This document shows, in pieces, positions 1,081 to 63,454 of a stretch of DNA of 64,000 bases (position 1 is its first letter; each line of letters starts with the position of its first letter). Location: the NCBI GenBank assembly GCA_027603945.1, contig JADIIU010000076.1:1-64000 (forward strand), given 5' to 3'. Under the pieces are notes generated by a model. It had not been told where the DNA came from. It worked only from the letters and a program-made list of their open reading frames with translations, and ran no database searches. Made by a program: the position numbers and the translations under genes. Source of the stretch: Terramyces sp. JEL0728 (taxonomy: Eukaryota; Chytridiomycota; Chytridiomycetes; Rhizophydiales; Terramycetaceae).

Positions 1081-2336
1081 TTATTCATTATGAGATAGTT
1101 GATCACTTTGCAATCTAAAGTCAACAGTACTTACATTTTAGGGCCAGTGCCTGAATTAGACTTTTTCATCTCATTTGGAGCAGGTGCAAACCAATTGACG
1201 CTAAATGGCTTGGAGAGAGTGTCCCATGCCTGATTTAGTATGGCGGTGGGTGTAATTTCTTGTTGAACGGATTGTATCGAACATGTAACAGTTTTATCCT
1301 TTGAAAACTCTTCATCAGACTGTGCTTTGATAATTACCCATTTAGTATTGAAAAAAGATTCAGTGTTGTTCTTGGTAAATGTATTTGGAGACCATTTCAC
1401 AAGAAATATGCATTGGCCAAATTTGTATGCCTCTGCTAATCCTTGAGTCAATACCGGATGATCGCTAACTGCTACAAATTCCATAATGTATCTCATCATG
1501 TAGGAATCAGGTTCCAAATCCAGGTATTTTTCTACTGGATACATTTGAAGGATCTTTCCCATTTTGTTGAGTCTAAATGATACATTATCACCTACTTTGA
1601 AATCTTTTCTTATAATAAACTCTGGAAGTGGTGTTGTAATGTGTCCGATTTGTTCAATCTTCAGCGCATGCGACTGTACTTTGCTGTATTCATTTTTCAG
1701 TAGGAAAATGTCATCCAAGAACCAAATATCCGCAACTGGCTGATCATCAACTACATAGCGATGGACGCAAGTATATATTAGCTTTGGCTCCTCCGAATTT
1801 AAAGCATTTAACTCGGTCAAACTCAATCCATTTCCGTTATTCTCTGAATTTTGAGTCTGGAAATAATCATGAATAAACTTTCCTGCAATCTGAGTATCAG
1901 GCGTTGAATCTTTGACCAGCAATTTCACTGCTTCTGGTGATGCGTCCTTTATTATCCCTGTGGAAGGATCTGTTGTAATCCGAGCCTGTGTGTGCAATAA
2001 GACGCATTTATCTGTAGGGTGATCCTCAGGCATTTTTAAATTGTAGAGTTTGTTGCCATCATAAAAACAATGCGTGATCGTGGATATCAGATGTTCCCAA
2101 CCCTCTATCACAAACTACTTTTTTAATTTTCAACTAGCGATATATATGGATGGTCCCCAGTTACCGATTTGTGAGTCCACTTTCGGTGAGCCCAAAAATT
2201 CCAGCTTTGTTCCTACAGCAATAAATCCTATGGTATAACTGCAGTCGCATCCATTCAGCTCTTTTCCGCTGCTTGAAACAGCACCAGGAGTGGGAGGTAT
2301 ATTCTGTGTCAAGTTCTTCAAACTAAGACGCCCCAT
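1081..2336 (-). CDS. Unrecognised protein, 401 aa, two introns
   Basis: I do not recognise this protein. The proposed model starts at ATG 2336 (MGRLSLKNLT) and joins three exons. One intron at 1115-1134 is a typical 20-nt unit, GTAAGTACTGTTGACTTTAG, and moves the C-terminus to GPKILQSDQLSHNE. The other, around 2112-2141, is 30 nt in my model, longer than the local norm and less certain. Coding length is divisible by three after splicing. No signal peptide or membrane span is obvious. It shares a 107-base divergent spacer with the FMN-binding gene at 2444. Confidence 0.6.
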
Positions 2337-2443
2337 CTCATGCTGTTGAAGCAATGATTTTGTTACCAAATTTCCAATATGGCCTGGCTTCCAAAGTTGA
2401 AGGATACCGTAAAACGAAATAGCACTCGAGAAAATAGTAATTC

Positions 2444-3160
2444 ATGATTAAATTAGCTGTTGTCCAATGTGCATCAGTCCGCACTGACGGTACGCCTAAA
2501 ATCCACTCGCTGGTATACAGAGACTTTTTAAAGGATTCAAACCTAATTATATTCTCAGGATCGTCCAGAGACCCAGATATGATGAGCGTGATGAAAAAAT
2601 CCACTTCTGCACATGAATTATACTGGAATTACCCAAAGGAAACATTTATCATGGCGGGTAGAATGTACATTGTCGCATCTCCTAATTTATCACACAGATT
2701 AGGAACTCCACCTAGAAGGCTGACCAATGATCCAAATCCAGAAGAGTTTTGGGAAAAGGAAAGGGAAAGGCAATGGAAGACGCTGTCTAGGGAATATCGT
2801 GCTAGCTTTTCATGGCCGGTCTCTGGAGAGCTGCTTAAACCATCTGAAACAGCAACTTGGTCTGCATACAAGGGAATTAACACTGTCAAGCAATCCTATG
2901 GTTTGGATGTTGGCTATAAATACACAAGCTTGGATGCAATGCCAATCAAGCAATTGTCTCTAGCAGAATTAAAAAGTAGGGAAAATAACCCCCAAGCAGA
3001 ACTGGAAAATGTTCACCAAATGGCATTCGACAACTTTTGCCTGTTGATATTCAAGCCTACAAAGGTGGATCACACTGTCATCCCTCGCAGCGGAGTCCCC
3101 CAGAGATTCATTTACAGTACAGATAAAGATAATTGGGATGTTGAAGAAGTAAATCCTTAA
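2444..3160 (+). CDS. Pyridoxamine 5'-phosphate oxidase-like FMN-binding protein (Alr4036 type)
   Basis: A 238-residue split-barrel flavin-binding protein of the Pyridox_oxase_2/Alr4036 group, not the classical vitamin B6 enzyme. Typical features are the N-terminal strand ending in DSNLIIFSGSSRDP, the strand TFIMAGRMYIV, the segment ERQWKTLSREYRASFSWPVS, and the C-terminal VPQRFIYSTDKDNWDVEEVNP. Members bind FMN; their substrates are mostly unknown, so an oxidoreductase role is a family-level inference. Intronless and probably cytosolic. Confidence 0.85.
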   Translation: MIKLAVVQCASVRTDGTPKIHSLVYRDFLKDSNLIIFSGSSRDPDMMSVMKKSTSAHELYWNYPKETFIMAGRMYIVASPNLSHRLGTPPRRLTNDPNPEEFWEKERERQWKTLSREYRASFSWPVSGELLKPSETATWSAYKGINTVKQSYGLDVGYKYTSLDAMPIKQLSLAELKSRENNPQAELENVHQMAFDNFCLLIFKPTKVDHTVIPRSGVPQRFIYSTDKDNWDVEEVNP

Positions 3161-3201
3161 TAAACTAAAATTTTCAGTAGGAATTTTTTTTCAAAATCAA
3201 A

Positions 3202-4351: not shown

Positions 4352-5580
4352 ATGGCAGAAGAAGTAAAAGTAAAGAAAAGACATAATTATAGGTCCGCAA
4401 ATCATTAGGAGTATACAGGTCTGCAATTCTTAACGCCAGGGGTCATGAAGGGACAGTGTATTCACTGGACGTTTATTGGAAACGCTCTGCATCAATGTCT
4501 ACATCATCTAAATCGAATCTAGGAAAAGTTACGCCAGTAGACGCATCAGACATGACAAATTTGGTGTACCTAGTATCAGGTTCACACGACCAGAGCATCA
4601 TACTATGGGAAGTACAGACAAATTTAAATACCAAACCCGAAACAGTCAAGGTACCATTTACCTTATCCAGGTCGATCAAATAAAAAGATTGAAGGGCCAT
4701 TCTGGCGATGTATATGCCCTGGAGGCAACGTCTGATGATGTACTTCACCGCGCAGGCAACCTAGTGTCTGGTGGTGACTATTCTATCAAAACATGGAATA
4801 CGGATACAGGAAACGTAATGCAGACCTTGCACGGCCACACTGGCTACGTGTCATGTATCAAAGTAAGAGGGAAACGAGTGTTCTCTGGCAGTTGGGATAC
4901 AACAGTTCGTTCTTGGAACATTGAGGTAATACTTGCTAACCATAGACTGGGAAAGGAATGCATGTTTTCAAAGGACACAAGAACATTGTGAATTGCATTG
5001 AGGTTATAGATACAGATATTTTTTCGGGCAGCTGGGATATGAACATAATACAGTGGAACCGAGCGGTAACTGATTTTAATATAGACCGGAGAGCCTGTAC
5101 ATATATATAGAGGCCATACTGATGGCGTGCAGTGTATTCAATACTACGAAGATCACCTGTATAGCGGGTAAGCGGTTTCTTACAAGATCAATGGATAAAT
5201 CGATTAGAGTGTGGAATACAAAAACAGCAAAAACCACAAAAATATTTAGGGGGCATCAGGGAGGAATCGAGTGTTTGAATGTAGTGAATGGCCACTGCTT
5301 TTCTGGGTCTTACGATAAAACCATTAGGTAAGTGCGGATTAATTCTAGATGTTTTCTGATTAAGGTAAATACTGCTAAATTAGACTGGCGATTGCATCGC
5401 TATTTTTGAAGGGCACACGGATGGTGTTTATTGTTTAAAGGTCTTTGGCGGAAGAATGTATAGCGGTTCCGGCGACAAGTCAATCAGACTGTGGGATGTC
5501 AAAGTAACCCCCACTAATAGTAGGATCTTGTGTCCATGAGACGAAAAACGTGGTGGGAAAAGCTGTTTAGTTGCTTGTAA
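4352..5580 (+). CDS. Seven-bladed WD40 repeat protein
   Basis: A 354-residue protein made almost only of seven WD40 repeats, each with a GH...D...SGS.D.(S/T)(I/V)..W pattern, for example RGHEGTVYSLD, KGHSGDVYALE, HGHTGYVSCIK and EGHTDGVYCLK. The repeats resemble the propellers of FBXW7/TRAF7-type proteins, but no F-box or RING precedes them. Nine exons are joined by introns at 4393-4418 (26 nt), 4651-4670, 4926-4945, 5066-5084, 5168-5186, 5328-5348, 5365-5383 and 5504-5523. Every repeat is restored only when these introns are removed. A 16-nt exon lies at 5349-5364. Its exact pathway cannot be told from the sequence. Confidence 0.88.
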
Positions 5581-5645: not shown

Positions 5646-6933
5646 TTACATGGATCCACGAGGTCCAAGTTTGTCAAGTGCTCTTGGTCCAAGCTCGGCC
5701 CATTCTGCCTTGGTAATCCAGAATGATTCTCTACTTTTCATAATATCGCCCAATACAGCACCTCCCAAGAACACCATATGCTTACGTCTAGGCGGGTCTT
5801 CAACTCTTATTTTGAATTTCTACCATTAAATAAAATGCACATTTAATCTGGATGTATCCCCCTGCAATACTTTTTCCAAATACAATTGTCTGACTTCTTT
5901 CTCCAATCTGCTAGGGAGACCTGGATACATGGATGTGCCCCCAGATAATACGATATGTTTGTACAATTCGGATCTAATATCAATTTCAGCAGCGTTAATT
6001 GTGTTGAACAGTAATTCTTGGTTAACTAAAAGATACCTCCGACACCAGGCGATTCGATATCTACTAAATGTGGCTGGAATAGAGCTTCTGGTGCTTCAAA
6101 TCTTTCTGAGCCGATTTTAATGACACGACCATCAGGCAACTAGTATTTAACTCGTGCTTACTGTATATTGTTCCATTAATACCGTGGTTTCAGTGGCGAG
6201 TTTGTGTTCCAGTTGCAAATCATAACCCACATAGCACAACTTTTCTTTTAGTTGACGTACTGTTTCAAAATCAGCAGTTCTGTTGAATGCATATCCTCTT
6301 AACAGTAGTAGTTTGATGAGGTATTTTGTGATGTCTCGTCCAGCAACGTCCAAACGACGGACAAGATGTGGAAGTGCGTAGCCGTCATATACAGGGACAA
6401 TGTGCGTAACACCATCTCCGGAATCAACGACAACACCAGTTTGTAAACCTAAAGTTAATAAATATAACCTTGGGCATAAAGGGTCAACACTGCTTGAATT
6501 GAAATAAATGCTCCATTGAATCCATAATGTTCAAACATGACCTCCAACATCTTTTCCCTGTTCTTTTTAGGATTCATTGCTGGTTCGGTTAAAAGAATTT
6601 TGTGGTCTGCATAGTTTTGAAGTCCAAGTTTCTCTTTGAACGTGTAATCCCACAAATGATACATATCAGCCCAGTTACGCACAATACCATTTTCCATAGG
6701 GTATGACATTTCAAGTTGGGCACGTAATGCTGCAGCTTCATCGCCGACGATAATATCCTTTAAGAATACATCTCCTGACTTTTCCTCTGCACGCAAGATT
6801 GGTCTGCCAACAACTGCAGGAAAGATTGCAGTTGGAAAGTTAGTACCAGAGAATCCACACTTTACAAACTTTTGTTAATCTATTGATTTACCCCGGTTCC
6901 GTTATCGCAAATAACAACTTCGTTCTTCGACAT
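5646..6933 (-). CDS. ARP2: Actin-related protein 2 (Arp2/3 complex)
   Basis: Actin-fold subunit of the Arp2/3 complex, which nucleates branched actin. The spliced protein starts [20 protein letters not shown] and contains the Arp2-specific segments [35 protein letters not shown] and [20 protein letters not shown]. It ends LGPRGSM at 5646. Five introns fit the conserved junctions exactly: 6869-6891 (23 nt), 6449-6468 (20), 6140-6161 (22), 6017-6036 (20) and 5820-5840 (21). The first exon encodes only the first 14 residues. Confidence 0.96.
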
Positions 6934-7231: not shown

Positions 7232-8435
7232 ATGGGCTACACGGCAGAGCAATTACTCACTCTAAATACAGTTACAAAGACATCTTCCGTGGTGGGGTTT
7301 GTAGGGGTGCTGGCAATGTTTGTCGTATGCGATTATTAATGTAGATGTTGTACAGAAATCCTGAATCCTTCAAGAATCCAACTGGCAGACTTGTTCTTGC
7401 GATTACAGTGACCGATCTTTTTGATAGTGGTATTCGAATTACTAATCTAGTAACAAAGTTTATTGGCAGATGGGGGCCTGATTCTGGCCTGACTTCCTTC
7501 CTTTGCTATGCCCAAACATGGTCAATTCAGCAATTTAATATTTCTTCCGTTATCCGTAAGTCGATATTAATTTTAGTTGGAATGCTGATGGGTTTCAACA
7601 CCGTGTACTTGATTTTCTTTAAAGGCTCTGTAGAAAAGATTCAAAAATTCGAGCCATACATGATTCTAGTTTCTTTTATCTTTCCAATTCCGTTTGCTCT
7701 TTACCCAATGTTTGGTAAGCCATTGGGGATTCCGATGGTTGGGGATGTGGATACTTGGTGCTGGATTTCAAAGCAACACGCAGTCTACCAAATTTATTTG
7801 TGGTTTGCAATATTATGGATAATCTTTGTCCTCAATCTGCTTATTTTGGCTGCTACAGTTTGGGCAATTAAAAAGAATGAAAAGGCATTGAACCAGCCGG
7901 TCCAGTAATTCAATTTAAATGTAGACAAAATAGTAGAATGTCTTTTGGAGTTTACATCCAAAGAAGAATGCTCGCTTATTTAATTGGTTTCGTTATTGTA
8001 TGGACCCCATCGTCTTTGAACAGAATTACTCAGCTTGCCTTGGGCTATCCTGTCTACACTTTTGGAATCTTGCAAGCATTGGTTTCACCTACTCGTGGGT
8101 TTATTGATTTCCTTGCCTATTTCTACTCATGGTGGTATTCCCCAGCGAATATCCGAGACAAAAAGCTCAGTGCTGGGAAAAGCATTGACGACCAATTGGA
8201 CAAAAAGAAGGGGAAAGGCGAGCTCCAAAAGTCTACCCAGACATTGCGTAAATCACCTTCTATTGATCCCAACGATGTGCTCTTTTCAACTGAAACTTTA
8301 AACAAAGTAGAAAAGACTCGCAAATTCTCTGAAGATATCCCGCTAGAAGGCAAAAGAGCAACTTCGTATGGAGACTACTTGAGCGACCCAAAGGTTTTCA
8401 GCCCTGAAACTTCCGACCCAAAGCTTTTTAAATAA
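7232..8435 (+). CDS. Seven-transmembrane receptor, cAMP-receptor/Git3-like
   Basis: A 380-residue polytopic protein with about seven hydrophobic helices, a W-C loop (DTWCWISKQ), and a hydrophilic Ser/Thr/Lys-rich cytoplasmic tail after residue 270. The overall pattern resembles the Dictyostelium cAMP-receptor and fungal Git3/Gpr1 class of G-protein-coupled receptors; the ligand is unknown. Introns are 7325-7344, 7556-7576 and 7905-7924. The middle one is 21 nt, in frame and stop-free, so an unspliced reading wrongly inserts seven residues into a membrane helix. The ATG at 7232 was chosen because it gives a continuous first helix. Confidence 0.8.
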
Positions 8436-8462
8436 AAAACTGTAATTATTTTGGTAACTGTA

Positions 8463-9219: not shown

Positions 9220-10757
9220 TCAACGCAATAAATCACTGTCACCGGTATAGTGAGAAGGGCTGTTTAAACTGCTTTCTATGAATTCTGCGAATGTAATCGG
9301 GACAAACTTTGGGTTTCGCAACCCTTCAACAGTGAGCCATCTCTTGTACCTCTTGATATTTCTGCAATTTTTGTAATATCTATCCAACTCTTCAAATATA
9401 TCATCTCTCGCCAAAAAGAGGTCATACAGATATTGGTAATGGTCAGTTCCATTGTATGCCACCAAACTAACATTTTCAAGTTTCAAGATTGCCAGACTGT
9501 CATAGAATAAACGGCTTGATTCAAATGGAACTACATCGTCGTGCTTGGCATGGATGAGCATAATGTTATGCGGTATAAACTGCTGGAAATCGCCCTTTTG
9601 TATGAACCTTTCGCTTCGTTTCAAGATTTCAGTTGGAGACCAGTGCTTGAAAGATTCGTGTTTGTTTTCTGTGTTAAAAACAGTTACCAAATAATCTAGA
9701 CATGCAAGATAATTCTTCTATCCCTCTGATTTTTTCAAAATTCAAATGTTGAGGGATATCGTAAATGCCATTCAGAAGCACCACGCCCATCAGTTTATGG
9801 GTATGGGTTTGCGCATATTTTTCAATTGCAGACGAATGGTCCGAATGGCTCTCACAAGCTCTTTTAGCATAGTTCAAGACAGATGCCATGCAGAGGTGCG
9901 CTCCGGCAGCATGTCCTACCAGAGTAATGTTGCTAGCATCACCACCATATTTTCTGCATTCAGAATCAATTACCTGATATTGCGGAGAGTCCACTTTATT
10001 GCGGCATCAATATCGCCTACCATTTCGCTGATAGTTGCTTTTGGCCAAAGCGTATAGTTTGGAATCACTGTAACAAACCCCTTTTGAGTGAAATTGTATC
10101 CAATAGGGGAATATAGGCTCTTGTGTCCAGAATTCCATCCACCTCCATGAATGAATATGATTACAGGCCTGTGGTTTTCTTTCGAGTGGATGTAGGATAC
10201 ATGATCCCTGTTCTCGTATGTACTTTCATAAATATCCAGAGTCGTATCTTTAAATTTGCTTCCAAAGTTAATATTTTTAGCGATTCTCCCCTTTGACATG
10301 ACTTGCGTATTCTTCTTGTTCCATGTATTCCAGATAAATGTCTTGAAAATCACCATCGGTGGTCCGTAGATGTTCTTTGAAAGATAATTGAAAAACGCTC
10401 TATTGACTTGAAATATCCTTATTGGACTGAGTGGCAATCTAGGAAGGGTAATGTACAAAATTTTAGTTTTGTTTGGGTTCTTTTGTTGCGCGAATGCGAG
10501 GTACAGAGTCCAAGATATAGCGCACGGCAAGACTATTGTTAGCATAGAGTACATAAAAGCGATATCCATAGTGGGAACAACAAGTGGAACAAGAGCGGGC
10601 TGACCATAAAGAATATACACAACGAAACCCAACTCTGCGGAAGGGGTATAACTGAAGCATAGTGGTATCGGAGACGCTCAATCAGCTCGGCATAAGTGCT
10701 GATTGAGGATTTGACAAATATATAAGGCGCTGTTGCCGTAGTCTTGATGAGGTTCAT
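9220..10757 (-). CDS. Membrane-anchored alpha/beta hydrolase, ICME-like, catalytic Ser replaced
   Basis: A 492-residue protein with an N-terminal hydrophobic region (about residues 45-85) and an alpha/beta hydrolase domain. The oxyanion motif HGGGW and the segment VIPNYTLWPKATISEMVGD match isoprenylcysteine methylesterase and BD-FAE relatives. The nucleophile elbow reads GHAAGAH instead of GHSAGAH: codon GCT (Ala) sits where the catalytic Ser should be. Candidate acid and His positions (KHDDVVPF, NGTDHYQYL) are retained. Introns lie at 10533-10552, 9954-9973 and 9669-9687. It may be a pseudoenzyme, or the base may be a sequence error. Confidence 0.83.
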
Positions 10758-12764: not shown

Positions 12765-14452
12765 TCACGACTCAGAATCATCTTCTTCGCCAACTTGGAA
12801 TATCTGCGACAACTGCGGCCTCATAGGTGATTTTGGTCGGAGCCTTGGAAAAGTGTTGCTATTCTGGTTCATTATTGCATCTTCACCAAGCCCGTGTATC
12901 TGCGGTAAACTTCCAGAATGCATTGGATGTGGTGCACCTGGGAACCCAATAATTGAAGATATAGGTTGTGGATCCATTGGATGCGAAACACTTCTCCTGC
13001 GAATCTGCCTCAAACTTCTCTTCTTGTGAGCTGCTACATGCCTCTTTTCAACTTTTTTGCCTATACTTCCAGCAGCAAGCCCGAAAAAGTGGGAAATAAT
13101 AGCAATCTACAGTAAAATGTTGCTTACCGCGTTGAACAAGAACAGCCACCAATACTCTATACTCCAAGGAGAGGTAAGTAGAAAATCTCCATATCCAATG
13201 CCTGTAATTGAAACAAAGGCAAAGTATAATCCATCAAAAAAGTCCCAGTCTTCAAAATAAGAAAAGACGAATCCAGAAAAGAACCACCAACAGATAACAG
13301 ATATTGCAAATGCAACAATCTTGATTGTATTTTCCTTTCTCGATATTTCTTTGTGATCTGATTGCGTTAGGTAACTTTCCCCAGTCGCAACAGTATACAG
13401 CGGTAAAGGATTTAAATCCGACGGAAATCGATTGATGGTGTTTGATGATTCTAGTCGGTCACTTGAGTCCACATACTCTGACTGTGTGTAGTTTCTATCA
13501 AGGGGATATCTTTCCAAAGTCCCAGCTCTATCTAAATTACCAGAAAGCACACTCATTTTATCTTCCAAGCTGGCTCTCTACCATTAGCATACTATCACCC
13601 TCACTTGAACCCTTTTTTCCGATTCCCCAACTACAATATTTTGATACGCGAGCATGTAAAATCCAGCAACACATAAACCGAACGTGGTGTAAAGGATCAT
13701 AAATAACCTGCCGCCAAATGTTTTTGGCACTATATTCCCATATCCGATTGTCAACAAGGTCATAATACAAAATTCCCCTGCTTTTTCAAACGTAAAGCTC
13801 TCAAGGAATGTAAATACCATTGATCCAAACATTATATACCTATTATTAGCTTTCACCAACCAAACAAACAGGAAGCTCGCGTATTCGTACTTTTTCTGTT
13901 CCATAGTTTGGTATTTTCTAATATTTTGAAGAAATGAAAGGTCGGAAACGTATAATAAGAAGGCAATCGTATGTATAATTGCTGAGGATGAACAAGCGGC
14001 CATTCCCCCGGGGTAGTATAAGTGCTCAGTTGGCGGATATCTGTATTTCCACTGCAAAGCTACAAACGCCAATAGCATTGCTATATTAGGTATATCTACC
14101 TTGTAGTAACGAACAAACACATGAAATCACAGTTGAAGGTCTGATTTTGTATCCTCTCGCCCTGCTCCTAATAGCAAATTGCGCAATCAATCCAATAAAT
14201 ATAGCGACTCCAATTGTCGCGTACTCTGTTGCTCCTATGTATATTCCGTCATAATCCTGATACGGATGTCTCACTTCTGATATATCATTGACAATCCAAC
14301 CTGGCGTACCTATAGCACGTACAGAACATAAAAATGCAAAGCTAGGTAAAATGGAATTTACTTTGAACATATACATGCATACTAGAGTTAGATTATATTA
14401 CCATATACGGCTTTGAAGCCAGGAAGTGTTCGATATCTTTGTATGTCAACAT
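12765..14452 (-). CDS. TOK1: TOK1-like two-pore outward-rectifier K+ channel
   Basis: A 528-residue potassium channel with eight predicted helices and two pore loops. The selectivity filters read TIGYGN (pore 1) and GIGYGD (pore 2), as in fungal TOK channels. A hydrophilic loop containing RRASLED, a possible PKA site, lies between pore 1 and the last helices, and the C-terminus is basic then Pro-rich. Introns: 14382-14401, 14342-14361, 14081-14099, 13578-13598 and 13107-13127. The first two flank a 20-nt coding exon at 14362-14381. The intron at 13578-13598 could instead be 15 nt, starting at an internal GTATGC. Confidence 0.9.
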
Positions 14453-19094: not shown

Positions 19095-19378
19095 TACAAA
19101 AAAAAGGAATTTGAATTTCGCACTTTTATAACGGCAGCTGATAGCCTGCGCCTCATTCAATCGGACTTGTTGGAAACATAATTGTGCATACATTGGACAC
19201 ACTCAAAAGAAAAGAGGTTCTGATAGATCTGCGAATGCCCGAGAAAAGCGATAATATCTCTGCGAACCATAATGACATGACAGCCAAATTGAAAATATCC
19301 AAAGATGGGTTTTCATCAATTTTTGATTTAGGGTTATCTACAAAGTAACTGATTGTATATCTGCATATTTATTTTAAG

Positions 19379-36166: not shown

Positions 36167-36289
36167 ACTGCACCTAAATAAATTTTCATCAGAGCCTCTT
36201 ATTGTTATTTGTAGGTCGGGTTGGTTACTGCAACGTTCGGAAATACGATGATTCGTCAATCAATTTGAAAAGCTTGGCAATCTCAAAAA

Positions 36290-46208: not shown

Positions 46209-47426
46209 ATGATCGCTCATAAAGACAATCAAAAAGACAAAGTTAAAAACGCCAACAAGCAGATTTGGTGGGAAGTTATAGCTGTTCTTACAGTTGTCCA
46301 CACCGTCGCTGGCTTATCCCTCTTATACTACACTCCTGCTGCTGCAACTGTAAAACTCACTACCTGGCTCGTTGCCCTCGGTGCATTTGGGTACTTGATA
46401 GGCTAATCTAGAATTACTATGGGCTATCATCGTCTATGGTCCCACAATTCCTACAAAGCAATCCTGCCAATCAGAGCAGTGCTTGCTTTCATGGGTACTC
46501 TTGCTTTCGAAGGATCGATTAAATGGTGGTCATTGAGACATCGTTTACATCACAGATACACCGATACCGACCATGGTAAGTTGATTTTGATGGTAGATCC
46601 TTATGACGCTACAAAGGGATTCTTATACTCTCATATCGGATGGATGCTTGAAAAACAAACTTATACTCGCATCAAGTGGATCGACAAATCCGACTTGGAC
46701 GATGACGAAGTTGTCCAGTTCCAACACAAGTACTATCCTCAATTGGCCCTCGTTTCTGGTATCTTCCTTCCAACTCTGCTTGGATTCTTTTGGGGCGACG
46801 CAGTTGGTGGATTCTTGTACGGTGGATTTGTTTCTAGAATTGCCATCTGGCACTGCACTTGGTTCATCAACTCTTTGGCTCACAGTTGGGGCGAACAAAC
46901 CTTTTCTACTGAAAATACTTCAAGAGGAAACCTGCTGCTCGCTTTACTGACCATGGGTGAAGGCCATCACAACTACCATCACGAATTCCCAAGAGATTTC
47001 AGAAACGGAATTCACTGGGATGATTGGGATCCTACTAAATGGTTGATCGCTGGGTGCAACTTCTTTGGCATGACCTATGATTTGATTACTGTTCCAGAAG
47101 ATGTCATTCTAAAAGCTAAAGTGTCGACCGCCATGGAACATATTGCAGATATGAATTCTAAATTAATCTGGAGTGACGAAACCAAGCTCCCACAATGGAC
47201 CAAAGATGACTTTATCAACGAATGCAAAAACAATGAACTCATCATCCTCGATGGATTTGCGGTAGATATCAGAGAATTCAAGGACCAACACCCTGGTGGA
47301 AGCGTCTTGCTCACAAAGTATATCGGAAAGGATGCTACTAAATCATTTTATGGTGTCTTGAACAATCATACCAAGAGTGCAAAGCAAATGATGACGGATC
47401 TCAGAGTTGCTAAAATTATCGAATAA
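46209..47426 (+). CDS. OLE1: Stearoyl-CoA Delta-9 desaturase with C-terminal cytochrome b5 domain
   Basis: ER enzyme placing the first double bond in palmitoyl- and stearoyl-CoA. In 398 residues the three His boxes are present: HRLWSH, RHRLHHRYTD and HNYHHEFP. The C-terminal b5 domain has the haem motif HPGGSVLLTKYIGKDATKSF, the fused arrangement of fungal Ole1. A 21-nt intron at 46391-46411 interrupts the GITMGYHRLW motif; splicing restores it exactly. Four hydrophobic helices flank the catalytic region. Confidence 0.96.
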
Positions 47427-47443: not shown

Positions 47444-48877
47444 TTAAACAAGAGGAGGATTGGCATTTTTCAAAAGCATCACAAATTCATCGTGGAACCA
47501 GTCGCCAGCTTGCGGTGCCCCTGGCAATGAATCTATTCCGTTTGAAGTGGTTGGATCACAGAAGCCATCTAATCTAGGAGCGCCGGGAGGGCCAGAGACG
47601 CCGTCACTTTCACCTGGGGGTTTAATCCAAACAAACGCATCAATGAGTGCAGATGGATTAGCTTGTGGTCTTGGGCCAATCCCAGCTCCTTTAACATTAC
47701 ACCACGAACCCCAGTTGGTTCTGATGCCTGCTTGCCCGCTCCTTCCTGTATCAACTATAAATCTAGTTGGCAGACCCATTGGACCAAACACTGTGGCGAG
47801 CTGTTGTGTATATATATTTTCATCGATGCATGGATTGCCTTCATACTACCATTAAAATTACTTACAGTCAATTGTCCATTATTGTTTTGAAGTGGATCTG
47901 CTTTTGCCGGGGCAGTTGTTGGCGCATTGAATGGAGAATAATTGGAAACACTTGTTGCAAACCCTGCAATCTTGGTTTTTGGATTGAGAGCAAGTGCTGC
48001 GTTGAAGACTCTTTGGAAAACTTTGGCGCCTAACTGTTGATTGTTTGGCCATCCTAGCCATCCACCGTGGGCTGCATCTACATACTGCCATACATTTGGA
48101 AGACTTAATTGCGAAAGCGCGTAGGCAACACCGTCTTCGTATCCCTGTTGTGCCTGAACACATTTTTCAGTGCCAGGAACGTTTGTCGCAATATTAGGCA
48201 ACGAATCAGGTTCGATAATCAATACAACTCTGACATTTGGGTTGAAGTTTGCTTTCAAGGTTTCGACAATTACATCAATGTACTAGATTAATCTAGAATT
48301 ACCTTTGCCTTGTAAGTGTCAATGCCGCCAATTGGAATCTCGCCGTTAGAAGCTAGAGCATGACAATCCCGTCCAGGTAAATCATAAACAACAAACTGGA
48401 CTGTTATATTATTTTTCGTTTGTGCTGCTTGCTTTGCAGCTGCTTGCAATCCTGTTGACAGTCTTGCAAGGTTAACCATAGTGTCCATCCAAATCGCAGT
48501 AGAGTATGAGGCGACCTTGTTTGCCATAGCAGCGATAGACGAATCGTTCGCAATGGATGATTGGACTTGAGCAACGAACTCTGGATTGATGAATCCGGTC
48601 GCACCATAGAATGGATTATCCGTGCTAGGTGCGACAGTTGGATGTGGCAGAGATGTAGTTACTGGAGGTACATTGGTTGGGACTGGATTTGAACCTGGAA
48701 GGCATTGGGAATAGTACTGGTTGGAAACAGCACAATTTGCTCCAGCAACACAGCAGGTCGGACCATTCCAGTTTTGTCCACCACTAGAATCAGCTTTTCT
48801 TACCATTGTGAATAGAGTGCACCACAGTCAGCCGCGACAAAGCTAGTTAAAGCCAAGTGCAAGATCATTAAGCACAT
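47444..48877 (-). CDS. Secreted GH6 cellobiohydrolase with N-terminal CBM1
   Basis: Cellulase of 457 residues. A signal peptide (MCLMILHLALTSFVAA) is followed by a fungal cellulose-binding module (CGALYSQCGGQNWNGPTCC...QYYSQCLPG), a Pro/Thr linker, and a GH6 domain with YDLPGRDCHALASNGE carrying the catalytic acid, IIEPDSLPN, and VDTGRSG. Three 20-nt introns: 48784-48803 (splitting a CBM Cys codon), 48283-48302 and 47846-47865. The next gene, on the same strand, is a GH1 beta-glucosidase, so the two form a cellulose-to-glucose pair. Confidence 0.96.
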
Positions 48878-49050: not shown

Positions 49051-50661
49051 TTAAATCTCTTTGATATCAGTCGCGGTTCTCTTGCCAGTGGTAACTGTCT
49101 TTTTCCCGTCGACACTAGTTCTGGTGGTGGTTGTAGTTGTAGTGGTGGTAGTTTTAAGGAAAGCGCGCTTGTCCCGAATAGCTACATGAAAGAAATTTCT
49201 AATAAATCCAAGTGATTCCTTTGGATATCTTTCCAGTGTGTTATAGTCCACATAGGTAATACCAAAACGTTCAGAGTAGCCTCTTGCCCATTCAAAGTTA
49301 TCTAAAAGCGACCACGCAAAATACCCTGTAATGTTGCTTCCTTCTTCAACCGCTTTGACTAGAGATTGCAAGTAGCCGTGGTAGTAATGAATTCGTTGAG
49401 TATCATGTAACGCATCGGCAAGTTCTTTTTCACCAGCAACACAGAACCCGTTTTCAGTAATTGCGACTTCAGGATTACTATACCTTTCCCTAATGAATTT
49501 CAATAGTTTTCCAAATCCCCATGGCACATCAAAGAGCCAGAATGCTTCAGCTTTCGGACCGATTAGATTGCCATCTATATCAAATTCGGTAGCAATGTTG
49601 TTTCCATCGATATCGTTTGTAGGAGGTATTTCAACACCAGTGTCTTTAACGTACATGGTCGTGTAAGAATTCAATGCAAAGAAATCGGCAGATCCAAGCA
49701 CCAGTTGCTTTTCTTCTTTGGTAAAGCGAGGTAGTCTATCTCCTAATTGACTTTTGAGTGACGCGGGATAATCCCCAGTCAAATAAATTGGGTCCGCAAA
49801 CCAACATAACATGAATTCCAGTCTTCTCTTTGCTGCTTCAGCATCTTATTATTGTTGAATTACCTTTTTCTTCCTTGGTAAATGGTTCGAACCAGTCACA
49901 GTTTAATGCAATGGAAATACGTCCGTTTTGAGCAGCTTGATACCTTTCTCTGTAAACCTGTGCAGCCTTTGCATGAGCCAACAATGAAGTATGACCAGCA
50001 CGCCAAACTTCATTTGACGGATCGCCAAGTCTGCCAGGAGCATGGGGGCCGTCATAACCATACCCAAGCTTACAAAACGTGTGTGGTTCAATATTAATTT
50101 GAAATTACCATTCAATGTCATCCAGTTCTTTACACGATCGCCAAATTCTCTGAAGCATGTTTCTGCATAATAAGCAAAATCAATAGGCAATCGTTCGGAA
50201 TTGAGTAGCCCACCGTATTCATCGTCAAGCACTTGCGGTAGATCCCAATGATATAGCGTGACCCAGGGTACAATTCCGTTTTCCAAGAGTGCATTGAACA
50301 AGTCATTGTAATGTTTGATTGCTGATGGATTGATAGGCGATCCGGCTTTACCCTCAGGAACAATTCTAGACCAAGATAGAGATAGTCGATATGCAGTTGC
50401 ACCCATTTCTTTCAAAATTTCTATATCTCTAGGATACAAGTGGTACTGGTCGACAGCTACGTCGCCATTCGAACCATCAAACACTTTACCTGGTATTTTG
50501 CTGAATGTGTCCCAGATGGAAGGTGTTCTGCCGTCTTTGCTGAAAGCTCCTTCAACCTGATATGCAGCAGTTGCCGAACCAAAGGTGAAATTGGATGGGA
50601 GTTTGTCTTTGACTTGCAGCGGGATTGAGTTTGCAGATAGCTTATCTTCTTTGCCGATCAT
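49051..50661 (-). CDS. GH1 beta-glucosidase with a non-AG intron and poly-Thr tail
   Basis: A 523-residue enzyme hydrolysing cellobiose or other beta-glucosides. GH1 landmarks: NFTFGSATAAYQVEGAF, YHWDLPQ, the acid/base in TLNEPHTF, and the nucleophile in ITENGF. No signal peptide is visible, so it is probably intracellular. The intron at 50089-50108 splits the catalytic Glu codon and runs GTAATTTCAAATTAATATTG, ending in TG; the other, 49845-49863, ends in AAG. The C-terminus has a run of about ten Thr followed by a basic stretch, unusual for GH1. Confidence 0.95.
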
Positions 50662-52269: not shown

Positions 52270-53210
52270 TTAGTATTCATAGAACCCTCTCTTTGTCTTT
52301 TTGCCCAACCATCCAGCATCCACATACTTGACCAACAACGGACTTGGACGGTACTTGTCATCGCCCAATTGATGATGTAAAACCTAAATAAACCAATATT
52401 TACTCTCATGATAGATAAACAAGTATCCAATCCAATGAAATCGCCGAGTGTCAAAGGTCCCATTGGCACATTAGTCCCCAACTTCATTGTTTTATCAATA
52501 TCTTCCCTAGTCGCAATGCCTTCTTGCAGTACATAAATAGCTTCGTTAATGTACGGCATCAGAACTCTGTTTGCAATGAATCCTGGCACATCCTTGGATA
52601 AAGTTGTAGTTTTCTTTAACGTCTCTGCAAGTTGAAGAGTAGCATCAAGAGTCGCTTGTGAAGTTGCTAATCCAGGAATAACTTCGACTAGTTTCATGAT
52701 TGGAACTGGATTCATGAAATGCATACCAATTACTTTTTCAGGCCGTTTTGTAGCAGCTGCAATTTTGGTAATTGAGATTGAAGAAGTGTTTGAAGCTAGA
52801 ATGGCATGTTCTGGAGTGATTTCATCCAAGCTCATGAACAATTCTCGCTTTAAACTCGGGTTTTCTGATACTGCCTCAATAACGAAATCTACATTCTTGA
52901 AACCCTTGATATCAGAAGTTGTTCTGGTCAGTTGTTTGTGCTGTTCACGTTCTTCTTCGGTGATTTTACCTTTCAAAACGTCTTTTTGAAGCATCAAATC
53001 TTGTTAGTTAGTTATTACCCATGAATTTCAATCCTTTTTCTAGCTGGCTGGCAGATGAATCTAGCAGCAGTACATTCTTGCCAGAGAGAGCAGAGACATG
53101 GGCGATACCTATACCCATCTGGCTATTGTTAATGAAGGTTACCCAGCACCGATAACTCCAATAGTTTGGATCGATCGTCTGCATTGAACGAGATTTACTT
53201 TTTTGAACAT
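52270..53210 (-). CDS. HADH: L-3-hydroxyacyl-CoA dehydrogenase, mitochondrial type
   Basis: NAD-dependent beta-oxidation enzyme of 293 residues. A basic presequence ([15 protein letters not shown]) precedes the Rossmann motif [15 protein letters not shown]. Further signatures are [39 protein letters not shown], and [16 protein letters not shown]. It ends [11 protein letters not shown], as in the family. Introns are 53123-53142 (inside the NAD motif), 53000-53018 and 52384-52403. A 3-hydroxybutyryl-CoA dehydrogenase role is an equally possible reading. Confidence 0.95.
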
Positions 53211-53354: not shown

Positions 53355-53887
53355 TTATTGCACTTCTTCCTCCAGACACCCACATTTCCACAGTTTCTCT
53401 ACAGTACTACAATCAAACTGCGGTTTATCCAACCTCTCATTAACCAAATTGTGTATTTCACAAGTCCACTGCACAACGTCATCTCTATTCTTGACTCTTG
53501 GTGGATGTTGCTTCAATAGCCGTTGAAAGTGACTGGCGCAATCACCGCAAGGGTATAGCGTTGCGAATAATTTAATAAAATCCAGGAAGGCTTGTTGGTC
53601 ACTTTGTTTAGGTTCAAGTGGAAATTTTACAGACATTACATGTAGTAATCGCCACGAACTTCTCCCTAACTCAGCACTAGATCAGCAAATAGTTACCGTA
53701 GAGTTTCGTTACCCATTTTTGACATTATGGGTTTGTCTGGCTGAGTGAATGATGGTCGGAACAGTGATTTTTGCTCTTTAATATCCAGGTTTCCCACTTT
53801 TCTTGTATCCGCAATGTTGTATATGAATAGCACTGTAAATAGGGTTATTATTAGTATTAGGATATTGCTTTTCTTTATCGGCAGCAT
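53355..53887 (-). CDS. FAD-linked sulfhydryl oxidase, Erv2-like
   Basis: A 170-residue thiol oxidase that passes disulfides to substrates and electrons to oxygen. The N-terminal helix (ILILIITLFTVLFIYNIA) acts as signal anchor, favouring the ER enzyme Erv2 over mitochondrial Erv1. The active centre is CGDC within LYPCGDCASHFQRLL, with WxxLH-type FAD contacts at SSWRLLHV and the NLVNERL helix. A C-terminal CGC could be the shuttle cysteines. A 20-nt intron at 53677-53696 follows the stalk. Confidence 0.9.
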
Positions 53888-55118: not shown

Positions 55119-56663
55119 ATGGATTACACAGTTGCTGCAGTTTCTACATTAATAGCGATATACGCACTACACAAATTATTAAAAAAGGATCCATATGCGG
55201 ATATCCCTGGCCCTTATGCATTCCCAATAGTCGGCTCAATTCAGACATTCAAGCAATCCCTGGCTGGAAAATCTCACGAACAATGGATGGTTTTTGCTTC
55301 TCAATTCAAAAGGATATTCAAAATAGAGCGATTAGGAGTCACAAACGTAATTATTACAGATGCAGATGAAACTAAACGCATTTTAACCGACACTGATTCA
55401 TTTGTTCGTAGATCTGCAATATTCGCTTTCAAGTAACTTGAATTAATGCAGGGGACTAATGCTGGACCATGCTTTATTTGTATTCGGAACTGGAGATCAG
55501 TGGAAACGGCATCGGAAACTAATTCAACCTGCTTTTGGTCCAACTCATTTGCGCCATGCAGCTCAAACTACAGTGGAGATAATGGAAAAGTTGGATAGAA
55601 TATGGGAATCGAAATTTGTAAAGGAAAAGTCGTTTGATGTTGACGTACATGCCTTGATGAAATCAATTACACTGGATGTCATGTATCTGATATTAATATA
55701 GCGGAAAAGTAGCATTTGGGTATGATATGGAATCGCTTGAAAAGTTTTCCAAAGGTCTGCAAGGTGATTGGCAGGAATATGATATTCTTAGTATCAAAAC
55801 ATTACCTCGCAGAGTAGTATTCCCAGAATTCCTGTGGAAACTGTTTGGGGTTGCTCCAAGTTCAAAGAACATTGTTGATGCAAGGACCAATGTTGAAAAA
55901 ATGCTGACTGGACTATCAAACCAGCGATTAGAAAAGATCAAGAATGGAGAAATTAACCAAGAAAATTGGAAGATGGATGTGTTGCAACGGTTACTTATTT
56001 CGCAAGAACAAGGATCGCTTACCAGAAATGAAATATTTGGAGAGCTGCTTGGATTTATTTTGGCAGGGCATGAGTACTTTTGTTTCTAACCTAGAACATC
56101 TTCAAATACGCTATCTTTTGCCATGCTTGAATTGGCCAGAAATCCTGATGTTGCAGAAAAGCTCTATGAAGAACTGGACAGTGTCGATCTGTCCAATAGC
56201 GAAAACATCATTGAATTACTGTCATCCTTGAAATACTTGGACAAGTTCTTGAAGGAAGTACAAAGAAGACACTCTATAGTAGGAGCATTGGGCAGGGAAA
56301 CCACCAAAGATGTTCAAGTATGCGGCCATCATCTGCCAAAAGGAACCAGAGTCCAGTTGTACTTGCGAGCGATCCATATGAACCCGGATTACTATGAAGA
56401 CCCTGAAAAGTTCAATGTGGATAGATGGGACAAGGAAATCAAGCCAAATGCATTTGCACCATTTGGAGACGGGCCACACAACTGTATCGGGCAGAAACTA
56501 GCTGTAATTGAAACCAAGGTAAATCATATTAACATAGATTGCATTAATTCATGTAATTCAAAAGTACAAGTTTGCTATTATCCCGGATTTTGAGATTGAT
56601 TTGATCTCTGTGATTACAATGACTTTTAAAACTGGTTTGATGATGACTGTTTCCAAGCGGTAG
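55119..56663 (+). CDS. Cytochrome P450 monooxygenase
   Basis: Microsomal haem monooxygenase of 488 residues. An N-terminal membrane helix (YTVAAVSTLIAIYALHKLL) and the hinge DIPGPYAFPIVG are followed by the I-helix AGHETSSN, the K-helix ExxR in LKEVQRRHS, and the haem-ligand loop FAPFGDGPHNCIGQKLA. Introns: 55433-55451, 55683-55701, 56073-56093 and 56519-56537. The third interrupts the oxygen-activating AGxET motif, restored only by splicing. The family and substrate cannot be assigned from motifs alone. Confidence 0.95.
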
Positions 56664-58421: not shown

Positions 58422-59478
58422 TTATTTCTCAAATTTCTCTGATGTAGTCCTTGGAAGCGTTGGAGAAAATACGTCCACTTCTGCTTTGGCAAAAACATCA
58501 TTTACTATTGGTCTGGGTTCATTATGCATGGATTTCTTTACAGACATCCCACGAGATTCGCTGTTAGAAGATCCAGTTGGTCTGAATTAATAATATTTAC
58601 CTGTTTGATTCCAAGAGTTCTTTCGAGCCAACAAAACTGCTATGTACAAACACAAATATAGATACACTCTGAGAATAATATTGCGCGACTAGATTAGCTA
58701 TTCTGTACATATAGCGGTGAAGGATAGCGGCGAATTGTCGGTATTAGAAAAGCAGGCTAGTGCAGCAAACAAGGAGAATATCTTTAGAGAAACCAGCAAC
58801 ATATAGTCCACCAATTTGTGCTTGAGATACAATTCTTTAACAATTTCAAATCCTTTCTTTTCCGACCCCAGTTTTTGGGCGATTTGATAGAGGAAATACA
58901 AAGAAGCGCTGGAAAAGCTGCCGGCTTCAATCACATTCGATATAGCAATCACGATGTTTGACAGCTACCGTTAATCGCAGCGCAACCTTGACGGCTGGCA
59001 AGTGAAACAAATTGATGTTTTCCGCTTCCATTAAAAATTGATAATTTAGGTACTGTCTAACTATTTGGTACAAACGGCCTATAATTGCCAGTCCCATAAC
59101 TGCAACTATTACGCGGTACTTGGATACACTAATATCCTACATTAGCAGACGGTATACTTTTGCCATCACTGGAATGCGGATAATTATCACGAGAAAAACC
59201 AGTATGGAGGCTAGTGAGTTAAATCCTGTCCCTAATAGCAAAGTTAGTGCCTGATTTGAAAGTACATTTCCATATGGCGACACAATTATATCGGCAAACG
59301 CAATGGTGGTCAGTATAGATAGTAAATTTGCTATTGCTGCTCCAACAGATAACACACTGATTTTCGACAGCTTGTCCCTCGCGTTAACATACAGTATATG
59401 GTATATTCCCATATTACGTTGTAGGCCAAAGGTAACGAGCACAATCGATGGAGCTACAAAGGCATTCAGTGCATTCAT
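58422..59478 (-). CDS. Seven-transmembrane protein with Ser-rich cytoplasmic tail
   Basis: A 324-residue polytopic protein assembled from five exons; seven hydrophobic helices are followed by a tail of about 60 residues rich in Ser, Lys and Pro (RPTGSSNSESRGMSVKK), ending PRTTSEKFEK. The pattern suggests a receptor, but I recognise no specific family. Introns: 59137-59157 (21 nt), 58965-58986 (22), 58689-58708 (20) and 58582-58600 (19); removal gives one continuous frame. Without the last two the protein would end at the seventh helix, so the tail is visible only after splicing. Confidence 0.72.
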
Positions 59479-59740: not shown

Positions 59741-60694
59741 TCAAGATATCATGAATTCATAAAAGTATGCCAAGTAAGAGTACCAGCCATCTCCCATACA
59801 CAGTCTGGGGTATTTCGACAGCTTAATAATCGGCGCTTCATCAAACTGACCAGACTTTAACAGCGCAACTGCTTTGCCAACTTTGAAATTGCCGCGCTGT
59901 AAATGCAAATACGGCGTGTCTTCTGCCTTCAAATACGTAATCTTGTAATCAGCATCTTTGCTTTGAAGTACTTTTTGAGCCGCTAAATGCATAGTTAAAT
60001 AATCTAGAGGCTCTATTTTTTGAGTGTTTGCATTATCTTGGATATATTTAACATAGCCATCCACTGTATCAAAATCGTTGATTTTATAAAATTCCGTTTT
60101 CCAGTCTTTGATAAACTTTGAATTGGGTATACTTGCAAGGAACCAGTTTTCTATAACCGGATACTCACTATTGGTTGTGAATTTAGCGAGGTAGTAGCCT
60201 ATAAATTCACTTTGATCATGGTGCTGGTATGCGTTGATCCAATTGATAGGAGAGTGAAGTATAATCGATGAATCCAGCCATATTCCTCCATACTTTTCCA
60301 AAACAGCTAACCGAATAAAATCACTGGTTCGTTGTGGATTATCGGCATATTTTAATTTAAATACATCTTGAAATTCTGGATCACTTGGTGTGATTACCCT
60401 AATTTCATAGTCAGTGGATAACTTCCAGCTATCCATAAACTTTTGAATATCGGGAGGAATATTACTGTTACTCCAGTACGTCCAAATGATGTTTGGAATT
60501 GAGCTAGTTTGTTTCGTGCCATACTTTAGTTCCACGTACTCTCTAGCTTTCATATGCTGGTACTTGTTTACATGGTAATCAATATAACTCGTTTCTGCTA
60601 ACTGAAATCCAAATACAATCAGCGCAGTTAGTATTACAAGTGATCCACAGATAATTAATATATGTTTGCGGACAGTTTTTGGCCTGAAATTCAT
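59741..60694 (-). CDS. Type II membrane glycosyltransferase, GT32/capsular-synthesis-like
   Basis: A 317-residue protein with an N-terminal anchor (HILIICGSLVILTALIVFGF) and the motifs SIPNIIWTYWSN and TSDFIRLAVLEKYGGIWLDS, typical of the DXD sugar transferases related to Och1/GT32 and capsular polysaccharide synthesis proteins. The DxD position reads LDSS, with only the first Asp obvious. Likely Golgi-located. The ATG at 60694 is the first in frame. Intronless. Confidence 0.82.
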   Translation of the reverse strand: MNFRPKTVRKHILIICGSLVILTALIVFGFQLAETSYIDYHVNKYQHMKAREYVELKYGTKQTSSIPNIIWTYWSNSNIPPDIQKFMDSWKLSTDYEIRVITPSDPEFQDVFKLKYADNPQRTSDFIRLAVLEKYGGIWLDSSIILHSPINWINAYQHHDQSEFIGYYLAKFTTNSEYPVIENWFLASIPNSKFIKDWKTEFYKINDFDTVDGYVKYIQDNANTQKIEPLDYLTMHLAAQKVLQSKDADYKITYLKAEDTPYLHLQRGNFKVGKAVALLKSGQFDEAPIIKLSKYPRLCMGDGWYSYLAYFYEFMIS

Positions 60695-62218: not shown

Positions 62219-62464
62219 ATATATATTAATGCTGGTCTTGTCTATTAATCTGTGTTGGATTCTTAAGTAATGATTTATTGCTGTAGCATTTCTTGGATTC
62301 TTTACCACATACTATAGCATCTCGCTCCTGCTATTCTTTGGCTAAATGCCGGAATTAATATCGACGAATCCCAGGCGAATAGAATTCGTCAACGCAGCGA
62401 ATTTTCACCGAATGTGCTGTGCACTTGAACTATTTAAAGCACAGAAAACAATCAAATAACAAAA

Positions 62465-62761
62465 ATGACTACAATTGATATCAAACAGTCTCCGCTTGAA
62501 ATCCCATCCGAAAAGGCATTTCTTAAAATCGACAGCACTGGAGTCCACTCTTCGAGTCCAGCAACCAAAAGGTTTATTGAAGATCATCCTATACTAGCTA
62601 CTGCTGCTGCTATCCCAGTTGGTGCCGTAATTGCAGTTGGCGCAGTTGCAGTCGCTGGTGCTGCTGTCATTGCCAGTCCCATTATATATGCAATGGGGGG
62701 AAAGGTAGAATACAAGAAGGGTGGTATAATAATTGGAGGGCAAGAGCCTGAATCAAAATAA
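62465..62761 (+). CDS. Small hydrophobic protein, family member 4
   Basis: The shortest of the clu­ster at 98 residues. It has SPATKRFIEDHPILATAAAIP, an Ala/Val/Gly stretch of about 30 residues, and GGKVEYKKGGIIIGGQ near the end, close to the corresponding segment of member 1. The acidic tail of members 2 and 3 is missing. ATG is preceded by an AAC-rich leader (ATAACAAAA). Function unknown. Confidence 0.78.
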   Translation: MTTIDIKQSPLEIPSEKAFLKIDSTGVHSSSPATKRFIEDHPILATAAAIPVGAVIAVGAVAVAGAAVIASPIIYAMGGKVEYKKGGIIIGGQEPESK

Positions 62762-62860
62762 TTGTATATACACTCTTTTTTAGACACAATCTCGTAAAAG
62801 AACAAATACGCAGTTAAATCAAGAAACATTGTTATCGAGATCAAATATACATGTATTTTA

Positions 62861-63454
62861 TTAATTTTTCTGTCTTTTACTTGGATCTAGCATTAGTAAT
62901 ACTTACCATCGCTGTGTTCGGCTGCTCGTTTTGGCGGTCCTGGAGGTGGTCGTGGCATCATTCCAGGTGGAAACATTGGACGGCCATCTGGGAATGTAGG
63001 CATAGGCATACCTGGTGGCATTGGCATACCTGGAGGCATTGGCATCCCAGGCGGAAGTGGCATTCCTGGTGGTATTGGAAATGGTGGACGCATACCAGGA
63101 GGTAGAGGCATTCCAGGCGGTATAGGAAACGGCGGTCTCATACCTGGAGGAACCATACCAGGCGGAAACGGCATAGGAGGTCTCTGCCTGTTCTTTCCAG
63201 GGATAATCAACTCTGGAAACCCTCCCAATCCAGCGTAAACATACGCCTTGGTGATATTATTGACAACTTGTTGTACCTTGTATCCATCTATTTCTGAAAA
63301 GTAATTCTGAACATGCATTTTATGTTTCCAACCTGCGTTGTGATCTTTTCTTACTCTAGGCGAGTCGTGTGTAAGGTAAATGTCGCAATAATCTATTATT
63401 AGTATGGAAATAACCGCAGTAATACTATGGTTAGCAGATTCTTACTTTTGGCAT
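62861..63454 (-). CDS. YHC1: U1 snRNP protein C
   Basis: Zinc-finger protein that stabilises pairing of U1 snRNA with the 5' splice site. The spliced 176-residue product starts [20 protein letters not shown], with zinc ligands C6, C9, H24 and H30. A helical part (VQNYFSEIDGYKVQQVV) is followed by a long Pro/Gly/Met-rich tail with repeated PPGM units, as in U1-C. Introns: 63425-63445 (21 nt), 63393-63414 (22) and 62887-62906 (20). The first two enclose a 10-base exon, TATTACTGCG, encoding part of the first Cys motif. Confidence 0.95.

Follow-up and report, generated by a model that had tools for sequence, protein, structure and literature searches.

The window analysed here, a stretch of 64,000 nucleotides (nt) from contig JADIIU010000076.1 of the chytrid Terramyces sp. 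JEL0728, a free-living soil saprotroph, holds protein-coding genes interrupted by introns of about 20 nt. In final gene models with a coding length of at least 450 nt, 91 of the 92 introns measure 19-23 nt (19 nt, n=22; 20 nt, n=38; 21 nt, n=20; 22 nt, n=7; 23 nt, n=4; 101 nt, n=1), and the single 101-nt call is a miscall that conceals a 20-nt intron at 50089-50108 (-) in a GH1 gene. These models confirm the observation of tiny introns in this chytrid window. A first group of genes and introns is as follows.

4352..5580 (+): WD40 gene with eight introns of 19-23 nt at 4370-4392, 4651-4670, 4926-4945, 5066-5084, 5168-5186, 5328-5348, 5365-5383 and 5504-5523; gene model, WD40 repeats in the spliced protein
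4926..4945 (+): 20-nt intron of the WD40 gene, GTAATACTTGCTAACCATAG; gene model
5646..6933 (-): Arp2 gene, five introns; spliced product compared with Boothiomyces macroporosus
6869..6891 (-): Arp2 23-nt intron, codon 14 phase 0; homology-only alignment, six proteins
6449..6468 (-): Arp2 20-nt intron, codon 147 phase 1; homology-only alignment, insertion here in Batrachochytrium salamandrivorans
6140..6161 (-): Arp2 22-nt intron, codon 243 phase 0; homology-only alignment
6017..6036 (-): Arp2 20-nt intron, codon 277 phase 1; homology-only alignment
5820..5840 (-): Arp2 21-nt intron, codon 336 phase 0; homology-only alignment
17921..19094 (-): casein kinase I gene, four introns at 18966-18985, 18833-18854, 18664-18683 and 18089-18108; gene model and 4tn6_A
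19153..25226 (-): Mot1 gene, eight introns at 24745-24763, 24527-24549, 23640-23658, 20844-20864, 20641-20660, 20084-20103, 19632-19651 and 19361-19382; gene model, four junctions of the helicase part compared with 7zb5_E
35119..36166 (+): succinyl-CoA ligase alpha (SCS-alpha) gene, four introns; gene model, solved-chain alignment
35141..35162 (+): SCS-alpha 22-nt intron, codon 7 phase 1; gene model, outside the aligned homologous region
35261..35281 (+): SCS-alpha 21-nt intron, codon 40 phase 0; public protein comparison, homology-only alignment
35399..35419 (+): SCS-alpha 21-nt intron, codon 79 phase 0; public protein comparison, homology-only alignment, insertion here in Rhizophlyctis rosea
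35997..36017 (+): SCS-alpha 21-nt intron, codon 271 phase 1; public protein comparison, homology-only alignment, insertions here in B. macroporosus and Globomyces JEL0801
36290..38676 (+): cullin-3 gene, six introns at 36335-36354, 36685-36704, 37053-37073, 37200-37221, 38240-38262 and 38633-38651; gene model, public protein
49845..49863 (-): 19-nt intron of the GH1 gene; gene model
50089..50108 (-): 20-nt intron of the GH1 gene ending in TG (GTAATTTCAAATTAATATTG), branch motif normal; protein alignment 8in1_A

Junctions were defined independently by spliced protein-to-DNA alignment with neither a length nor a motif rule, using six Arp2 queries (from Gorgonomyces, Polyrhizophydium, Caulochytrium, Rozella, Capsaspora and a sea urchin) and five chytrid SCS-alpha proteins. 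Each of the six Arp2 proteins led to the excision of pieces of 23, 20, 22, 20 and 21 nt, and each of the five SCS-alpha proteins to 21, 21 and 21 nt at the three internal sites; shifts of 4 nt or less bring all eight introns so defined to GT..AG. Spliced Arp2 has 393 amino acids and is 99% identical to the 393-residue B. macroporosus protein. Ungapped alignments span the junctions elsewhere: all four in casein kinase I, within 307 residues aligned to casein kinase I delta (4tn6_A); the three internal ones of SCS-alpha, against a solved chain; and, out of the eight introns of Mot1, the four in its helicase part, against 7zb5_E. After removal of 50089-50108, the flanking residues of the GH1 protein align gap-free to the beta-glucosidase 8in1_A. 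Public annotation points the same way. Over 97% of its length, spliced cullin-3 matches, at 100% identity, a publicly recorded Terramyces sp. JEL0728 protein, which confirms seven of the ten SCS-alpha and cullin-3 introns, including four of the six cullin-3 junctions. This protein, HDV01_007049, joins SCS-alpha to cullin-3, which are separate genes in our models (35119-38676).

A sequence-only reading of the window had counted 83 of 86 introns at 19-23 nt and attributed the segment to a fungus, now placed in the Terramycetaceae (Rhizophydiales, Chytridiomycota). Introns that it located at 1115-1134, 4926-4945 and 35997-36017 reappear in the gene models, where its segment 63393-63445 becomes two introns, 63393-63414 and 63425-63445. 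Its intron counts for Arp2 (five), cullin-3 (six) and SCS-alpha (four) hold; for Mot1 the models have eight introns against its seven.

Intron lengths in the window and across the assembly

The length class can be seen with few assumptions. On both strands of the window, raw GTA...AG segments with a branch-like motif number 39, 50 and 38 at 19, 20 and 21 nt, where first-order random sequences have 23.2, 17.6 and 15.4, a peak that is visible, yet modest. A motif-free gene finder, built on codon usage, giving equal prior weight to all intron lengths from 15 to 300 nt and requiring only GT..AG, placed 23 of 34 window introns at 19-23 nt. With seven other dinucleotide pairs as decoys, only 2-8 introns among 26-34 fell at 15-25 nt and no peak appeared, the codon table having been trained on GT..AG models.

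Outside the window, we sampled 20 further contigs, taking a single 10-kb stretch of each; with the window this makes 264 kb of an assembly of 231 contigs and 15.0 Mb. The motif-free finder placed 104 of 168 introns at 18-24 nt with a mode of 20 (models above 450 nt), and each of the 21 stretches contains at least one short intron. Later rounds used learned donor and branch motifs, first with flat lengths (285 of 346 introns at 18-24 nt), then with learned lengths (403 of 412, in part a consequence of the model itself). Across 204,654 coding bases there are 1.93 introns per kb. The sample displays a narrow length mode below 25 nt, as in tiny-intron genomes.

The other features of the window are listed below.

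1115..1134 (-): 20-nt intron; gene model
2437..2456 (+): 20-nt intron; gene model
7232..8435 (+): Dicty_CAR-like receptor gene, four introns at 7325-7344, 7430-7450, 7556-7576 and 7905-7924; gene model, domain match
9220..10607 (-): gene with three introns at 10533-10552, 9954-9973 and 9669-9687; gene model
12765..14452 (-): ion channel gene, six introns at 14382-14401, 14342-14361, 14081-14099, 13840-13860, 13578-13598 and 13107-13127; gene model, domain match
25815..25833 (-): 19-nt intron; gene model
31439..31459 (+): 21-nt intron; gene model
31953..31972 (+): 20-nt intron; gene model
32820..32840 (-): 21-nt intron; gene model
32892..32911 (-): 20-nt intron; gene model
39783..40826 (+): gene with three GT..AG introns at 40063-40082, 40200-40219 and 40340-40359; gene model
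40813..40832 (+): possible 20-nt intron ending in TG (GTATTTATTATTAACTGTTG), branch motif normal; acceptor scan alone
40841..42130 (+): gene with six introns at 40983-41001, 41173-41191, 41324-41343, 41551-41569, 41789-41808 and 41977-41996; gene model
43736..43754 (+): doubtful 19-nt intron, followed by a predicted 3-nt exon at 43755-43757; gene model
43758..43778 (+): doubtful 21-nt intron after the predicted 3-nt exon; gene model
44586..45765 (+): gene with three introns at 45043-45061, 45086-45104 and 45718-45737; gene model
46209..47426 (+): fatty-acid desaturase/cytochrome b5 gene, two introns at 46391-46411 and 46576-46596; gene model, domain match
47444..48868 (-): GH6 cellulase gene with a fungal CBM1 domain, three introns at 48784-48803, 48283-48302 and 47846-47865; gene model, domain match
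52270..53210 (-): gene with three introns at 53123-53142, 53000-53018 and 52384-52403; gene model
53677..53696 (-): 20-nt intron; gene model
55119..56663 (+): gene that we take to be P450-like from its motifs, four introns at 55433-55451, 55683-55701, 56074-56094 and 56519-56537; gene model
58422..59478 (-): gene with four introns at 59137-59157, 58965-58986, 58689-58708 and 58582-58600; gene model
60598..60616 (-): 19-nt intron, branch motif weak; gene model
62887..62906 (-): 20-nt intron; gene model
63393..63414 (-): 22-nt intron beside a predicted 10-nt exon at 63415-63424; gene model
63425..63445 (-): 21-nt intron beside the same predicted exon; gene model

The receptor at 7232-8435 (+) matches the slime-mould cAMP receptor family, an intronless RNA ligase RtcB gene lies at 14879-16237 (+), in a fungus, and the GH6 cellulase gene adjoins the GH1 beta-glucosidase gene.

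Splice sites and splicing machinery

Splice-site anatomy was described on 386 introns of at most 26 nt called with the motif model, and on the motif-free set, which has 104 short introns plus 59 longer calls (the other five of the 168, below 18 nt, were dropped). In the larger set the donor consensus is GTAATT, with A at +3 in 88%, A at +4 in 58% and T at +6 in 55% of introns; at +5, T accounts for 41% and G for just 20% (21% in the motif-free set). The branch motif is YTAAY, preceded by a T-rich stretch (T 0.40), and TAG ends 247 of the 386 introns. Without the motif model, a YTRAY whose A is placed 4-7 nt ahead of the final G occurs in 78 of 104 short introns vs 16 of 59 longer calls.

Spacing is tight, as the sequence-only reading had proposed for the 5' site and the branch point: the distance from the first G to the branch A is 13 or 14 nt in 325 of the 386 introns, with one call at 11 and three at 12, and the branch A lies 5 or 6 nt from the last G in 343. 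Among the 78 short motif-free introns with this clear branch motif, the first distance takes values of 13 (34 introns), 14 (30), 15 (10), 16 (3) and 17 (1), none being 12 or less. These counts show a lower bound near 13 nt for donor-branch spacing. At the other end, the gap between the branch motif and AG is only 2-3 nt in most introns, too short to hold the eight or nine pyrimidines reported to be bound by U2AF65 (PMC8363638).

The GT..AG ends and a YTNAY-type branch near the 3' end fit the U2 type, with rare exceptions ending in TG. U12-type introns have a ATATCCTT or GTATCCTT donor and a TTCCTTAAC branch; the GTAATT and YTAAY consensus rules out that type for the class, no search for individual U12-type introns having been made. 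Non-AG acceptors were likewise rejected as a class: TG ends four calls, not above GA (seven), TA (five) or TT (five), so that among TG-ended cases only the one in GH1 is argued here. A candidate 20-nt intron ending in TG, with a normal branch motif, is also present at 8344-8363 of sampled stretch L017.

We searched the genome for the small nuclear RNAs (snRNAs) U1, U2 and U6 and for the proteins Prp8, SF1, U2AF35, Slu7 and Prp18. U2 snRNA was found with its branch-binding GUAGUA intact (140 bits), as were Prp8, U2AF35, Slu7, Prp18 and an SF1 with helix-hairpin, KH and zinc knuckles. The gene models of these splicing factors themselves hold short introns. Work in yeast indicates that a short branch-to-AG distance can make Slu7 and Prp18 dispensable; their loss, which such a distance would lead one to expect, is rejected by the presence of both genes.

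Removal, origin and rival explanations

Taken together, these elements are very probably U2-type spliceosomal introns of 19-23 nt, distributed genome-wide in a rhizophydialean chytrid, which the spliceosome would remove with a handover of the donor from U1 to U6, and which would have shrunk in place to a spacing floor. Reading frame, homology, motifs, splicing factors and public annotation support their probable excision from RNA, presumably by a spliceosome that retains SF1, U2AF35, Slu7, Prp18, Prp8 and U2. U1 pairing covers roughly positions +1 to +6 of the donor, and some seven bases go into the branch helix. Two or three bases would then remain between the two pairings, which makes simultaneous binding of U1 and U2 unlikely. 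The simplest way out would be sequential, the donor probably passing from U1 to U6 at the time when U2 binds the branch. Weakened pairing at +5 may help U1 to leave, and the loss of +5G would fit a weaker U1 hold. Old introns would have shrunk in place until the donor-branch spacing hit its floor.

Several observations weigh against parts of this interpretation. The U1-to-U6 handover is a step that we purely infer. The share of +5G, 15% at a spacing of 13 (n=155) and 36% at 15 (n=39), counts in favour of the interpretation, but the trend is non-monotonic, with 20% at 14 (n=170), 24% at 16 (n=17) and 9% in 23-nt introns, and comes from a single uncorrected test on gene-finder calls, in which 24 of 159 introns at 13 or less vs 18 of 57 at 15 or more carry it (Fisher p 0.011). 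Overall complementarity to U1 showed no change with spacing (Spearman p 0.23). Among the genes that the sequence-only reading had singled out for inspection, U2, SF1, U2AF35 and Prp8 are present, and U1 and U6 were not found in the genome with Rfam and patterns, nor U6 with BLAST. For U1, Rfam gave no match and the pattern ATACTTACCTG gave four, vs 12 for a reversed-pattern control; the four have no cmscan U1 match and no Sm-like site, and two look coding by eye. For U6, there are two near-identical copies below the cut-off (stretches L022 and L023, 27 bits), probably a repeat, and two chance-like pattern matches. Rfam at gathering scores had no match on the window and ten of the stretches. 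We do not read the non-detection of U1 and U6 as absence, because the draft assembly may lack their genes.

At the level of single junctions, one SCS-alpha run of the homology-only alignment yields an additional, spurious 19-nt piece, and the alignment of cullin-3 with two divergent homologues is messy, only 7 of 16 excised pieces sliding to GT..AG. Three of the ten SCS-alpha and cullin-3 introns go unconfirmed by the public protein: the first is not covered by it, the gene-fusing intron takes the place of another, and a third falls at the end of the match. The micro-exons at 43755-43757 (3 nt) and 63415-63424 (10 nt) are predictions of the gene models. The case for shrinkage comes from a handful of insertions in annotated proteins, taken at the protein level to be retained introns, and the tiny-intron case as a whole comes from sequence.

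The insertions in question come from 240 public proteins (120 Arp2 and 120 SCS-alpha matches) aligned to the window proteins, insertions of at least four residues being counted. Among 58 insertions, eight fit a retained GT..AG intron, and five of these stand exactly at the codon and phase of a window intron: at SCS codon 271 phase 1, with 21 nt in B. macroporosus and 27 nt in Globomyces JEL0801; at SCS codon 79 phase 0, with 66 nt in Rhizophlyctis rosea; and at Arp2 codon 147 phase 1, with 27 nt in two B. salamandrivorans records. Compatible insertions elsewhere occur in Kappamyces JEL0829 (SCS codon 223, 24 nt), in B. salamandrivorans (117 nt) and in record P0129 (159 nt). Irineochytrium (63 nt, SCS codon 40) and record P0198 (33 nt, SCS codon 79) have insertions at window positions that do not fit a GT..AG intron, and no compatible case occurs among short transit-peptide insertions. 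The pattern suggests that some intron positions may be ancestral, with lengths shortened in place. In viral contigs, the Arp2 query found no relative.

The same insertions feed the strongest rival, in which introns of roughly 20-30 nt are an ordinary feature of the whole order Rhizophydiales, already handled by annotators, with Terramyces at the short end. The lengths of 21, 24 and 27 nt in B. macroporosus, Kappamyces, Globomyces and B. salamandrivorans speak for it, as does the public Terramyces protein, which already splices seven of ten. However, the sample is tiny and biased, because only stop-free insertions divisible by three can register in this test; one B. salamandrivorans insertion reaches 117 nt, and no description of such a feature was found among the matches listed in open-licence literature. 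We give this explanation a real chance, somewhat short of even.

A more radical version of the mechanism would have donor recognition itself altered, with +5G abandoned, U1 and U6 diverged past standard searches, a hard 13-nt donor-branch floor, and U1 and U2 never bound together. We consider this combination unlikely, at perhaps one chance in a few. Still less probable is a second population of ordinary long introns missed by the models. It would accommodate the 9 of 412 final calls and 59 of 168 motif-free calls above 24 nt, and the introns of 63 and 266 nt predicted in the SF1 and U2AF35 models; many long calls vanish, however, after training on motif and length, partly by construction, and the single long call checked was the miscalled 20-nt intron in GH1. 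That the segments are bypassing-type inserts kept in transcripts is highly improbable: very short, uniform inserts do resemble such elements, but these have GT..AG ends and a branch motif at fixed spacing, U2 and splicing factors are present, and Rhizophlyctis has its 66-nt compatible insertion at the same codon and phase. Assembly errors or pseudogenes mimicking introns can practically be dismissed, since, although most segments if kept break or stop the reading frame, their lengths and motifs recur in 21 of 21 stretches sampled and the spliced products align gap-free to conserved proteins over hundreds of residues.

Comparison with known tiny introns

Tiny introns test how little RNA the splicing machine can work on, and most studies of the limit to intron length have concerned ciliates, a nucleomorph and parasites. 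With about two tiny introns per kb of coding sequence and the factors searched in place, a fungus would be easier to work with and nearer to the yeast models. Longer introns may persist at shared positions in its relatives, so that shrinkage could be traced stepwise. There is also a practical side, as gene predictors stumble on these introns: some of the public proteins examined are fused, lack residues beside an intron (ten in the B. macroporosus SCS record) or seemingly retain one. Introns of about 20 bases are among the shortest known. The length class is known elsewhere and the fungal case appears to be new, no description of tiny introns in fungi having been found in titles and the starts of abstracts among the matches listed from open-licence literature, subscription papers aside. 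The ciliates and the nucleomorph, with which these introns had been compared from sequence, are apt parallels, yet incomplete, since mikrocytids (PMC10245619) and Encephalitozoon cuniculi (PMC3629993) belong with them.

The heterotrich ciliate Stentor coeruleus has introns of 15-16 nt and shares with the chytrid narrow lengths, a branch A fixed near the 3' end and a conserved U2 GUAGUA; its most abundant intron starts with GUAAUU, without +5G, a possible convergence (PMC9505925). Stentor introns are shorter, are present in 18% of genes, have the branch A as tenth base and are described as lacking a strong branch consensus (PMC9505925), whereas in the chytrid the branch A is mostly base 14-15, YTAAY is clear and there are 1.93 introns per kb of coding sequence. 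Paramecium and Nyctotherus, with introns of about 25 nt, likewise have an ultra-short sole class, which is longer and belongs to ciliates (PMC5014332). In Trichomonas vaginalis, type B introns of 23-25 nt form a short class with a CTAA-type branch motif, but within a total of 63 active introns and beside a second, long class (PMC12316389).

Chlorarachniophyte nucleomorph introns (18-21 nt) have the same lengths as those of the chytrid and are numerous, in a relic endosymbiont nucleus rather than a fungal nuclear genome (PMC10245619). Mikrocytid introns, of 16-17 nt, are also very short and uniform; they belong to a parasite with a highly reduced spliceosome (PMC10245619), whereas all five of the protein factors searched are present in the chytrid, U1 and U6 not being found. 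E. cuniculi (Microsporidia) belongs to a fungus-related lineage and has introns with GT-AG ends and a branch motif (PMC3629993). It is a reduced parasite with 37 introns of 22-76 nt, against about 1.9 per kb in the chytrid, and its shortest intron, at 22 nt the shortest fungus-related length that we met in the literature, exceeds the chytrid mode (PMC3629993).

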